From positions 1-48,296 of the forward strand of contig CALRAI010000005.1 in the NCBI GenBank assembly GCA_943350635.1: a stretch of DNA of 48,296 nucleotides. The letters are read 5' to 3'. Below, piece by piece: positions 1-31,236 of the stretch (positions within the stretch are counted from its first letter, which is position 1; the number at the start of each line of letters is the position of its first letter). A program made the translations under genes and the position numbers. This DNA is from Candidatus Uhrbacteria bacterium (GTDB lineage: Bacteria > Patescibacteriota > Patescibacteriia > UBA9934). The notes beneath the pieces are model-generated. The model did no database searches and had not been told where the DNA came from. It worked only from the letters and a program-made list of their open reading frames with translations.

Positions 1-705
1 GAAGAGACATTAACAGATTTGAAAAAGAAGGTTCTTGAAGTTGGTGCAGATTTCGGGGTCGCCATTGATGGGGATGCGGATCGCATTGCGTTTGTTGATA
101 ACGAGGGATTCTCTGTTGCTGGCGACTCCACGCTTGCAGTGCTTTCAAAAGATGTTCTTTCCAAAAATCCTGGCGGGAAGATTTTATATTCCATTAATGC
201 TGGCTGGGCACTTGAGGATGCGATTCGTGCGAATGGGGGAGTTCCGGTTCCGTGTCCAGTTGGAAACACAAAAATCATCAAAACGATGCATGACGTTGCT
301 GGAATTCTTGGTGGAGAGGTTTCAAGTCATTTCTTTTTTCCAGAATTTCATAATCTTGAAGCGATAGACTTTGCTTTCTTAAAAATATTCTCTGCGTGGA
401 AGGATTTTGGAGGAACGTTCGCAGACCTGGTTCGTCCGTTGCGGTCGTATGCGAACAGCGCCGAAGTGAATATCCATACAGAGAAAGGCGACAAAGCAAT
501 CGCGGTGATTCGTGAACAATACGAACTAAAGGCATCAAACGTCATTACGATTGATGGATTGCGTTTTGAATTTGATCACGATTGGTGGTTCCTTGTTCGC
601 AAGTCAAATACCGAACCACTCATCCGAATTACCGTCGAGGCAAAAGATCGTGAGACGATGGAACGTGAACGGGACGCGCTTGTCGCGATTGTACAAAGTC
701 TATGA
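1..705 (+). CDS. Phosphomannomutase/phosphoglucomutase family protein, C-terminal part (5' truncated by window edge)
   Basis: Frame open from base 1; GVAIDGDADRIAFVD metal-binding loop, GGEVSSHFFF and C-terminal KSNTEPLIRITVEA phosphate-binding motif. Confidence 0.9.
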   Translation, partial: EETLTDLKKKVLEVGADFGVAIDGDADRIAFVDNEGFSVAGDSTLAVLSKDVLSKNPGGKILYSINAGWALEDAIRANGGVPVPCPVGNTKIIKTMHDVAGILGGEVSSHFFFPEFHNLEAIDFAFLKIFSAWKDFGGTFADLVRPLRSYANSAEVNIHTEKGDKAIAVIREQYELKASNVITIDGLRFEFDHDWWFLVRKSNTEPLIRITVEAKDRETMERERDALVAIVQSL

Positions 706-2102
706 TCCTTATCATTTCCCCCGCAAGGCAATTCATCTTCACATCCTATTCTTTTGATCGCGAAAGCGGGGAAGTGTTACTGAAATACGGGATTGACGAT
801 GAGGAGTTTGTGGAGCGATTGGTATTTCCAATTCCTTCAACCGGAATTCCGGAGGGAATCGAGGCCATGCTTGATCTCGCACTATTCACACTCCACCTCA
901 TCGCCGGCGTGAGCTACTACAAAGCGAAGTTGCCACCGTCCATTGTGGTGAAGTCGGGGGAGTTGTCTGCCGAACAGGCGGAGTTTTGGAACAAATTATA
1001 TACGTTAGGACTTGGCGAGTTCTTCTTCCGCAATGATTTAGATTTTCGGGAGTATGTGAAATTTCCGATTGGTGGGCCTGGATTGCCACGTCGGGATTAC
1101 CCTCCTCGCAATGACGGAAGTGAGACGATGTCCCACAACGACGGAAGCGAAAAGAAGTCATCGAATCTTTCGGGCGCGATTGTTCCCATCGGCGGCGGCA
1201 AGGACTCTCTCGTCGCGATCGAAATGCTGAAGTCGGCGAATATTCCATTCGATCTGTTTATGTTCGGCAATCATGCACGTATCCGCGAAGTTGCCGGCGA
1301 GGTCGGCGCGAAACTGTTCTCCGTTTCACGCACCATCGATCCAAAACTTATCGAACTCAACAAGTCCGGCGCGTGGAATGGTCATGTTCCGATTACCGCA
1401 TATGTCGGGATCGCAGCATCGATTGTGGCCTTGCTCCACGGTAAACGTGATGTCATTTTCGCGAACGAACGGAGTGCAAACTCGGGGAACACGGAAGTCG
1501 ATGGCGTCGTGATTAATCACCAATATAGCAAGAGCATTGCGGCAGAGCTCGATCTGCAGAATTATATTTCGTCATTCGTTTCGTCGGACGTTCGCATCTT
1601 TAGTCTGCTCCGACCGCTTTCCGAGCTGGACATTGCACGCAGATTCGCGGCAAACGGAAAATATTTCGGTGTTTTTTCAAGTTGTAATACAAATTACAAA
1701 CAAGGTGGAGCTCCATCCATCACGCGATGGTGCGGAAAGTGTCCAAAATGCGCATTTGTGTTTGTGATGCTTGGCGCATTTATTCCTCGCAGAAAAATGG
1801 TGGAAATGTTTGGTGAAGATCTTTTGGTGCGCGCCGATCTTTTGCAGATGTATAAGGATCTCACTGGTTACGGAACTATGAAGCCGTTCGAATGTGTTGG
1901 TGAGTTTGAAGAAGTTATCGCTGCATTTGCGCTCATTCACGGTCGTGGTGAATATGAAGATTCGCCGATGATGAAGTGGTTTGAAACCGATGTGATGTCC
2001 ACACGAAAAGACATTGATGCGTTGATCAACGGTGCATTAACTCTGTCAAAAGAACACGCAATGCCTGAAGAATATGAAGCTCTCGTCTATGCGTCTCGCT
2101 GA
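702..2102 (+). CDS. murL: MurL-like UDP-N-acetyl-alpha-D-muramoyl-L-alanyl-L-glutamate epimerase
   Basis: 466 aa; PIGGGKDSLVAIEML, NERSANSGNTEVDGVVINHQYSKS and SITRWCGKCPKCAFVFVML are typical of the MurL family; overlaps murD downstream. Confidence 0.8.
   Translation: MILIISPARQFIFTSYSFDRESGEVLLKYGIDDEEFVERLVFPIPSTGIPEGIEAMLDLALFTLHLIAGVSYYKAKLPPSIVVKSGELSAEQAEFWNKLYTLGLGEFFFRNDLDFREYVKFPIGGPGLPRRDYPPRNDGSETMSHNDGSEKKSSNLSGAIVPIGGGKDSLVAIEMLKSANIPFDLFMFGNHARIREVAGEVGAKLFSVSRTIDPKLIELNKSGAWNGHVPITAYVGIAASIVALLHGKRDVIFANERSANSGNTEVDGVVINHQYSKSIAAELDLQNYISSFVSSDVRIFSLLRPLSELDIARRFAANGKYFGVFSSCNTNYKQGGAPSITRWCGKCPKCAFVFVMLGAFIPRRKMVEMFGEDLLVRADLLQMYKDLTGYGTMKPFECVGEFEEVIAAFALIHGRGEYEDSPMMKWFETDVMSTRKDIDALINGALTLSKEHAMPEEYEALVYASR
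1078..1117. repeat. In-frame copy of the CGTCATTGCGAG...GGCAATCCAGG repeat inside murL
   Basis: Reverse complement cgtcattgcgaggagggtaatcccgacgtggcaatccagg differs from 31161-31200 at only 2 of 40 positions. Confidence 0.95.
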
Positions 2103-3345
2103 TTTGTCCAATGCACTCGTCATTATTCTTGGATATGGTCGCGAAGGAAAAGCGATACATGAGGTTTTGAAATCGCATGTTCCAGCGGCGCGGATCATCG
2201 TCACCGACGAAAAAACCATCGATATTCCAGAATTTCTCTCGCTTGCCGACGTAGTCGCACTGGCGACACCCGAAACAATCGTGATCAAATCCCCAGGAAT
2301 CCCATGGCACCGCGACTACGTCATCGCCCTCCAAAACGCCGGAGCGCAGTTCACATCATCCACGAATCTTTTTCTTGCTGAGCGAAAAGGAAGGGGAACG
2401 ATTATCGGCATCACCGGAACGAAAGGAAAAAGCACCACAGCATCGCTTCTCGCTCACGTTCTTAAAACGTCTGGTCGACCCGTCGTCTTTGCGGGCAACA
2501 TCGGCGATCCTGCAATCGCACACGTCGACGACACGGCAGACACCATTTTCGTTCTTGAGATGTCGAGCTATCAACTTGCCGATCTCGCAATTGCGCCAGA
2601 CATTGCGCTCATCGTGAATCTCTACGAAGAGCACATGGATTGGCACGGCAGTGTGGAAAGCTACCACGCCGCAAAAACGCGTATTGCAGAACTGCAGATT
2701 GAGGGCGATGTGTTTGTATACAACGAGAAATTTCCGCAGCTCGCCAATCTTGCTGGTCGTGTTCGATCGACCCCGATTCCGTTCATCGATCGTGCGGATC
2801 ATTCGTTGGATGCATTAACGCTCCTCGGCGAACATAATCGCGAAAACGCAGCCGGTGTTCTTGCTGTTTGCGATGTTCTCGGTATCGATCGCGCTGTCGT
2901 CGAGTCTGCATTTTCGACATTTCAGCCTCTGCCGCATCGCATGCAAGACATTGGTATTCATCACGGCATTCATTTCATCAACGATTCTATTTCTACAACT
3001 CCTCAATCCGCACTTGCCGCGATCGACGTCTTCAACAAAGACCTCGGCGCCATCATTCTCGGTGGCCAGGACCGTGGCTATCATTTTGCCGATCTTGCAC
3101 AACGTGTGGTCGATCTTGGTATCGCAATCTACATCTTGCCAGGTGGTGATCGCATTGCCGACGCAATCGCAGCGGTCGGCGGTACATCGATTTCAATGAA
3201 AACACTCACTGAAATCGTCCAACACGTCGTTGCGCACGCCAAATCTGGCTCCGTCTGTCTCCTTTCCCCCGCATCCCCAAGTTATGGCCAATTTCTCAAT
3301 TTCGAGGATCGCGGGCAGCAATTCATTGCAGCAGTCGAAAAATAA
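2074..3345 (+). CDS. murD: Mur ligase, MurD family (possibly MurD2-type, L-Glu-adding)
   Basis: ITGTKGKSTTASLLAHVL P-loop, LEMSSYQLADL, NDSISTTPQSALAAI (not the usual NDSKATN), GGQDRGYHFADLA; alternative ATG at 2089. Confidence 0.88.
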   Translation: MKLSSMRLADLSNALVIILGYGREGKAIHEVLKSHVPAARIIVTDEKTIDIPEFLSLADVVALATPETIVIKSPGIPWHRDYVIALQNAGAQFTSSTNLFLAERKGRGTIIGITGTKGKSTTASLLAHVLKTSGRPVVFAGNIGDPAIAHVDDTADTIFVLEMSSYQLADLAIAPDIALIVNLYEEHMDWHGSVESYHAAKTRIAELQIEGDVFVYNEKFPQLANLAGRVRSTPIPFIDRADHSLDALTLLGEHNRENAAGVLAVCDVLGIDRAVVESAFSTFQPLPHRMQDIGIHHGIHFINDSISTTPQSALAAIDVFNKDLGAIILGGQDRGYHFADLAQRVVDLGIAIYILPGGDRIADAIAAVGGTSISMKTLTEIVQHVVAHAKSGSVCLLSPASPSYGQFLNFEDRGQQFIAAVEK

Positions 3346-8847: not shown

Positions 8848-8918
8848 TCCGTCATCCCCGCGCAGGCGGGGATCCAGAAAAATCCCGAATGGATCCCCGC
8901 CTGCGCGGGGATGACGGA
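8848..8918. repeat. Palindromic repeat with perfect 29-bp arms (TCCGTCATCCCCGCGCAGGCGGGGATCCA)
   Basis: Left arm 8848-8876, right arm 8890-8918, exact reverse complements; a single-arm copy lies at about 19972-20000. Confidence 0.95.
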
Positions 8919-17401: not shown

Positions 17402-17893
17402 ATGGAGGAGAATAAAAAAATCGATCAGATTTTAGAGATTGTCCAAGGACTTGCTGTTGATGTTTCTGGATTAAAGTCAGATGTCTCTGTCTTGAAATCA
17501 GATGTCTCCGAACTGAAGACAGATGTCTCTGATCTGAAGACAGATGTCTCCGATCTGAAGTCAGATGTCTCTGTTTTGAAATCAGATGTCTCCGATCTGA
17601 AGTTAGATGTCTCTGTCTTGAAGTCAGATGTCTCTGTCTTGAAGTCAGATGTTTCCGAACTGAAGACGGATGTGAGGTCATTACGTGAATTTGTGGAAGA
17701 CCAGGCAGAAGCGTTGCAGGATTTCTCAACACATGTCGATGAGCAATTTTTGGCAATGCAAGGTCAATTGAATACACGTTTTGTCACAAAAGAATATCTG
17801 GACGATAAACTTGAAGAATTGCGAATCGATTTTGGTCTTAAGAATCGAAAATCGGGTTCATCAGATTCCGCACTATTACGAGTGCTCCGATAG
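17402..17893 (+). CDS. Heptad-repeat coiled-coil protein
   Basis: Ten consecutive LK(S/T/L)DV(S/R)x heptads (LKSDVSV...); TAGGAT -10 box 8 nt before ATG. Confidence 0.75.
   Translation: MEENKKIDQILEIVQGLAVDVSGLKSDVSVLKSDVSELKTDVSDLKTDVSDLKSDVSVLKSDVSDLKLDVSVLKSDVSVLKSDVSELKTDVRSLREFVEDQAEALQDFSTHVDEQFLAMQGQLNTRFVTKEYLDDKLEELRIDFGLKNRKSGSSDSALLRVLR
17471..17680 (+). repeat. 10 x 21-bp in-frame tandem repeat encoding LKSDVSx heptads
   Basis: Unit close to ttgaagtcagatgtctctgtc repeated 10 times with codon-level variation. Confidence 0.95.
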
Positions 17894-18094: not shown

Positions 18095-18183
18095 CGTCAT
18101 TGCGAGAAGGGTAGTCCCGACGAAGCAATCCAGGTTTAATGATCCTAGATTGCCGCGTCAAGATTACTTTTCTCGCAATGACT
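18095..18183. repeat. Palindromic repeat, CGTCATTGCGAG...GGCAATCCAGG family (two ~40-bp imperfect arms)
   Basis: Left arm 18095-18134 cgtcattgcgagaagggtagtcccgacgaagcaatccagg; right arm about 18144-18182 is its imperfect reverse complement. Confidence 0.9.
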
Positions 18184-19944: not shown

Positions 19945-20003
19945 ATTCATCATCCATCGTAAATGGATGATCCGTCATCCCCGCGCAGGCGGGGATCCAG
20001 TAT

Positions 20004-20040
20004 AAAAAATACGCTGCCCGATCGGGCAGCGTATTTTTTT
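20004..20040. terminator. Bidirectional terminator between thrS and convergent gene
   Basis: aaaaaatacgctgcccgatcgggcagcgtattttttt, near-perfect palindrome. Confidence 0.92.
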
Positions 20041-31160: not shown

Positions 31161-31236
31161 CGTCATTGCGAGGAGGGTAATCCCAACGCGGCAATCCAGG
31201 TGAGCCGAGATTGCTTCGCTGCGCTCGCAAAGACGG
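31161..31236. repeat. Palindromic repeat, CGTCATTGCGAG...GGCAATCCAGG family
   Basis: cgtcattgcgaggagggtaatcccaacgcggcaatccagg, then diverged opposing arm gagattgcttcgctgcgctcgcaaagacgg. Confidence 0.9.

Follow-up and report, generated by a model that had tools for sequence, protein, structure and literature searches.

Palindromic repeats of several families lie in frame at the same loops of MurL and MiaA in a genus of Candidatus Uhrbacteria

How does a dispersed palindromic repeat come to be read as part of a conserved enzyme, and does its position reflect one old insertion or many? The murL gene of a Candidatus Uhrbacteria draft genome (949 kb, 54 contigs) raises this question. Here we analyse a stretch of 48,296 nucleotides (the window; contig C5 of that genome), the main features of which are collected in Table 1. 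The genus set consists of five species: the window genome (G000) and its sisters G001, G002, G003 and G004. G014 and G015 belong to another genus of the same family, and G068 to a further family of the order. The named relatives of the window genome are Candidatus Uhrbacteria MAGs from lakes. Repeat copies were located by searches and judged from their loci rather than from full genome annotation; the queries were repeats derived from MurL, so that MurL is ascertained and MiaA less so.

Table 1 Features of the window (position 1 is its first nucleotide).
Feature	Position	Strand	Basis or remark
murL	702..2102	+	uninterrupted 466-codon ORF; NCBIfam MurL model; murD next
MurL linker with repeat and echo, 35 aa (I123-S157)	1068..1172	+	ortholog alignment; AlphaFold pLDDT < 50 at aa 126-154
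CGTC-tagged palindromic repeat unit CGTCATTGCGAGGAGGGTAATCCCGACGTGGCAATCCAGG	1077..1116	-	read on the opposite strand as PGLPRRDYPPRND
Echo	1110..1154	+	AATGACGGAAGTGAGACG (1110-1127) versus AACGACGGAAGCGAAAAG (1137-1154), 14/18 bases identical
PIGGGKDS, PP-loop-like ATP-binding motif	1185..1208	+	directly after the insertion site; 'PP-loop' inferred
Head-to-head pair of CGTC repeat	18095..18182		upstream of thrS; predicted single long hairpin, -51 kcal/mol
miaA	22963..23973	+	Pfam IPPT, E=2e-68; second recurrent host gene
Repeat-derived in-frame insert in miaA	23134..23203	+	related to the G001 murL insert
Intergenic CGTC repeat copy and downstream half-element	31161..31235	+	between thyA and a HIT-like gene

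The host gene is assigned by sequence as MurL over its whole length: NCBIfam model NF041275 (MurL) matches aa 8-460 (E=8e-120), with a score of 400 bits that lies below the 700-bit equivalog cut-off of a model restricted to Xanthomonadales. A Pfam search found no domain in MurL, and a PDB sequence search found no relative of it. The AlphaFold model (pLDDT 86, pTM 0.88) retrieved QueC/QatC PP-loop enzymes in a fold search, and this predicted fold would fit the ATP-to-AMP reaction known from biochemistry on the Xanthomonas enzyme (PMC8788868). MurL is said to have no known domains, and the predicted QueC/QatC-like fold would be a ready account of its chemistry. Residues G164-G166 and D168 of the PIGGGKDS motif are invariant in our ortholog alignment (A1). 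Across the five species, the murL core (both variable loops excluded) has a dN/dS of 0.03-0.08, with dS >1.2 in the nine computable species pairs, and the protein is thus strongly constrained. The gene is followed by murD (2074-3345). Four further genomes of the order (L046, L047, L159 and L160) encode MurL inside a single ORF of 818-868 aa; the C-terminal half is MurD-like in L046 and L047, the two that were read. Our data suggest that the MurL pathway for D-Glu is widespread in these Patescibacteria.

An earlier sequence-only reading had placed an intergenic repeat at 1078-1117 of murL, matching the copy at 31161-31200 at 38 of 40 positions. The match stands, the coordinates being one base off the best register given in Table 1, and the likeness to the arm at 18095-18134 amounts to 36/40 (both for the 40-nt unit, reverse-complemented). 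As proposed, the repeat is read through in frame, as P126-D138 of the uninterrupted ORF. The inserted segment is smaller than the roughly 40 aa first suggested, because the entire linker has 35 aa and the repeat itself accounts for about 13-14 of these. Repeat and echo (aa 126-154) form the sole long low-confidence stretch of the MurL model, just ahead of PIGGGKDS, and the repeat thus maps to a predicted disordered loop. The echo (NDGSE...NDGSE) is real, and its second copy aligns with sequence 3' of a different repeat in G004, the closest relative. The echo could have arisen as a target-site duplication, or it could be what is left of the repeat that G004 still has; the 14/18 identity does not separate the two.

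The whole-genome search (E<0.02) identified 21 significant copies of the unit at about 17 dispersed loci, which are mostly intergenic. Two are internal to genes and in frame, in murL and comEC; outside murL there are 16 loci, and all but the comEC one lie between genes or at gene starts. The nearest relative of the murL copy, on contig 15, is 38/39 identical to it. A difference of one base in 39, compared with a synonymous divergence in murL of more than 1 between species, fits the recent spread that the first reading had supposed. Paired copies form head-to-head dimers (C5:18095/18144, C25, C18 and C37). All 17 listed copies start with CGTCATTG, save those that the alignment cut at GTC; the stem (ATTGC...GCAAT) is palindromic and starts with AT, and the tail is CCAGG or CTAGG. 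From the tag, the stem and tail, and the dispersal, we assign the unit to the CGTC-tagged REP superfamily. In its predicted fold ATTGC pairs with GCAAT, a GGG-TAAT-CCC hairpin lies inside, and the pairs connecting the two are weak; the single 8-9 bp stem with a 4-5 nt loop of CGTC-1 to CGTC-4 is absent from this fold. Since its stem differs from these published shapes, we give it no numbered family. Four of its six frames are usually open, so that translation through the unit is often possible. The unit is abundant also in G001, G002 and G004, and was not detected by the repeat search in G003.

Other repeats were seen in the same genome. A second CGTC family, CGTCATCCCCGCGCAGGCGGGGATCCA, forms a perfect 29-bp inverted pair at 8848-8918 and has a third copy at 19971-20005. 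In comEC (L009), the CGTC unit found in murL is read in frame from the opposite strand as SVIARRVIATRQS, in the metallo-beta-lactamase part; it makes up aa 500-512 and lies within the ComEC domain match. An ORF at 17402-17893 is made of 21-nt repeats with a DVSxLKxDVS heptad pattern and encodes a putative coiled coil.

Beyond the first reading, the repeat at the MurL junction differs from one sister species to the next, and many genes are affected. In the alignment, all four sisters carry an insert at this junction, each different: DERSFAIAQDDG in G004, ETARWAVSESSDSIQSETAPRAVST in G002, SPPFMALDEPEPGEESESEGALDSAPLGPPINKG in G001 and PPPLQGGVGLPLRSSEGAKGGGG in G003. These inserts comprise a CATCCTGAGC/GAAGGATC unit and the palindromes GTAGAGACGGCCCGC, CCCCCATTTATGGGGG and CCCCCTTTACAAGGGGG, and nested or double repeats are present at one site in G001 and G003. 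When the five genomes were searched with the insert DNA, each sister insert proved to be a dispersed repeat of its own genome, with further copies numbering about 20 in G004, about 10 in G001 and about 40 in G003, and at 12 loci in G002. Identity between insert and own-genome copies is high in G000 (38/39), G001 (96% over 71 nt), G003 (92-98%) and G002 (25/25, and units at 91-97%); the G004 insert is less close (80-88%). No empty site was found at the junction among the five species. The segment of the window's MurL is absent from the orthologs. Distant MurLs, which would have refuted the first reading had they carried it, have unrelated linkers of about 20-25 aa. Repeats are also found in a second MurL loop (site 1; aa 44-53, following ERLVFP), in G001, G003, G014 and G015. 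G014 has them at both MurL sites and G015 at site 1, and the G014 site-2 and G015 site-1 inserts are one family in opposite orientation. Weaker evidence comes from G068, in which the MurL linker resembles three other places in the genome.

MiaA shows the same pattern, with repeat sequence at one site in 5/5 species of the genus. The site holds a C-rich element in G000, CCCCCCATTTATGGGGGG in G004, GTAGAGACGGCCCGGCGGGCCGTCTC in G002, a diverged form of the latter in G001, and CCCCCATTTATGGGGG in G003. The insert in the window's miaA aligns locally with the G001 murL insert with a score of 45, compared with a maximum of 29 in 2000 shuffles. Across the 102 repeat loci that were examined for read-through and domain context, an ORF of 150 aa or more reads through 47, and by our count about 29 are in frame within curated domain matches of conserved proteins. 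These hosts include ComEC, RNase HII, MiaA, Rpe, TruB, KsgA, RadA, ValS and UvrB, as well as UvrC, SMC, RibE, PBP2, MnmA, SufS, IleS, RecN and others. In a PEP-mobile-domain protein, different repeat families lie at the same place in G000 and G002. Nine non-murL genes are hit in at least two species, compared with 0.5 expected in a simple simulation, a comparison that is only indicative because detection is incomplete and some insertions were possibly inherited. The shared insertions in rpe and smc may be of this inherited kind rather than independent.

We conclude, with a probability of about 80%, that the murL segment is a recent, translated copy of a mobile palindromic repeat (a CGTC-tagged REP), and that families of such repeats recurrently enter permissive loops. 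Several unrelated palindrome families would copy themselves into new places, mostly intergenic, in this Uhrbacteria family, and genic copies would survive only when in frame, free of stops and placed where a loop can accommodate additional residues. A few loops (the MurL linker ahead of the ATP-binding loop, the second MurL loop and the MiaA loop) would be so permissive that, at one codon region, different families are gained independently by different species. The ORF indicates that the murL insert is probably translated, and the peptide is presumably kept in the mature protein and roughly neutral. Selection against harm, rather than targeted insertion, would make the hotspots. Frequent insertion with survival in tolerant loops only appears to be the simplest account. 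More tentatively, the loops may be common landing sites in which unrelated families repeatedly succeed one another at identical codons of a given essential gene, such that at the species scale loop peptides turn over faster by transposition than by point mutation.

If the MurL linker had received one insert in a common ancestor, and this had since diverged into the present segments, as has been proposed for the Rickettsia elements RPE-4/6/7, an insert at the junction in 5/5 species of the genus would be explained; G000 and G004 do share sequence 3' of the insert, and in both the insert is a CGTC-tagged unit ending in ATGACG. However, the families at the site are mostly unrelated, and most inserts are near-identical to copies in their own genomes even though the host genes differ by dS >1.2; most inserts are therefore taken to be separate and lineage-specific. 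Several unrelated families at one site favour repeated insertion into permissive loops over one ancestral insert, and on this sequence evidence we reject a single inherited insertion, which is unlikely. In a restricted form, an older CGTC element, perhaps decayed since, may have been present in the common ancestor of G000 and G004. That the linker is simply variable, its likeness to repeats being due to chance or to assembly artefacts, is extremely improbable. The linkers of distant MurLs are indeed unconserved (16-25 aa) and the genomes are MAGs, but the identity to dispersed copies reaches 38/40, and the sister MAGs, which derive from different lake metagenomes (TrH, LJ and Ike), all have intact ORFs. 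Dispersed copies in the own genomes of all five species led us to reject chance resemblance.

Two further accounts concern why the same loops recur. A mobilising enzyme, or older palindromes, could draw new insertions to these loops, so that the hotspots reflect target preference and not tolerance alone. The recurrence between KFP and GAIVPIGGGKDS is very precise, the nested or double repeats in G001 and G003 are as expected of targeting, and REPs are known IS targets (PMC1525189). We consider this account possible but doubtful, given that MurL site 1 and the MiaA site have no obvious target sequence in common with MurL site 2, that the inserts come from several unrelated families, and that the recurrent MurL sites fall at disordered or loop positions in the AlphaFold model. 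Alternatively, basic or proline-rich peptides, or mRNA hairpins, might regulate the host proteins; the same genes do recur, informational and cell-wall enzymes among them, and the G002 insert alone could form a predicted hairpin of -62 kcal/mol. Such adaptive inserts are very unlikely, since peptides at the same site show no obvious resemblance, whether in length (12-41 aa) or in sequence, and this points to tolerance.

The parallel with Rickettsia palindromic elements (RPEs), drawn from the outset, is well founded: the murL segment is a dispersed, CGTC-tagged palindrome, in frame in a predicted disordered loop and absent from orthologs. RPE-4, RPE-6 and RPE-7 (CGTC-4/CGTC-1) are read in frame within housekeeping genes and fall where the protein is exposed to solvent (PMC3767692, PMC3733652), and in-frame palindromes were termed a 'unique but recurrent feature' of Rickettsia (PMC3767692). 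Different RPE groups occur at the same loci of Rickettsia orthologs; whether this reflects hotspots or a single insertion that diverged was left open there, with common origin as the preferred model (PMC3767692). The CGTC repeats of Uhrbacteria are likewise short, tagged palindromes (ATGAC motif), dispersed and in frame in exposed loops. By contrast, the sequences that share one site include a GTAG-flanked palindrome and two C-rich ones, all unrelated to CGTC elements, and most inserts are near-identical to own-genome copies, which favours independent insertion. As the host is a Patescibacterium and not Rickettsia, we describe the repeat as working like an RPE and do not class it as one.

CGTC-tagged REPs, RPE-4 and RPE-6 among them, and their intragenic copies are already known: Di Nocera et al. 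(2013) described CGTC- and GTAG-tagged REPs, with recB hit at nearly the same position in two Xanthomonas species; their CGTC repeats come from Proteobacteria, Chlorobi, Bacteroidetes, Spirochaetes and Thermotogae, with Patescibacteria not listed (PMC3733652). The window repeat resembles these in its CGTC tag, its stem starting with AT, its CCA tail, its head-to-head dimers and its mainly intergenic location with a few copies inside genes, whereas the recurrence in Uhrbacteria covers five species and several families. Similar events elsewhere were judged 'conceivable' in a 2024 review of MITEs (PMC10969869), and our search of open-access papers yielded no account of in-frame palindromes from Patescibacteria. 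No transposase adjoins the CGTC repeats in the neighbourhoods checked, and the contig that carries the Y1_Tnp gene of G000 (contig 7) has no CGTC copies, in agreement with the literature, which describes no dedicated transposase for CGTC repeats. In G016, a Y1 transposase fragment (L192 968-1318, G016:C1) lies between inverted copies of the repeat AGGCGGGGTCACCGTCCCCCGCC, which is the family of G014 murL site 1 and not CGTC. This arrangement in a Patescibacterium is REPtron-like, as in REP-RAYT systems (REPtrons, REPINs).

What appears to be new here is that a single site in Patescibacteria hosts several unrelated families that behave like RPEs. Since most of these match own-genome copies, they favour repeated independent insertion on the question that PMC3767692 left open. 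The recurrent in-frame repeats form a natural loop-insertion dataset, and annotators should be aware that an odd linker in these genomes is often a repeat. Small Patescibacteria genomes thus carry selfish DNA within conserved proteins.
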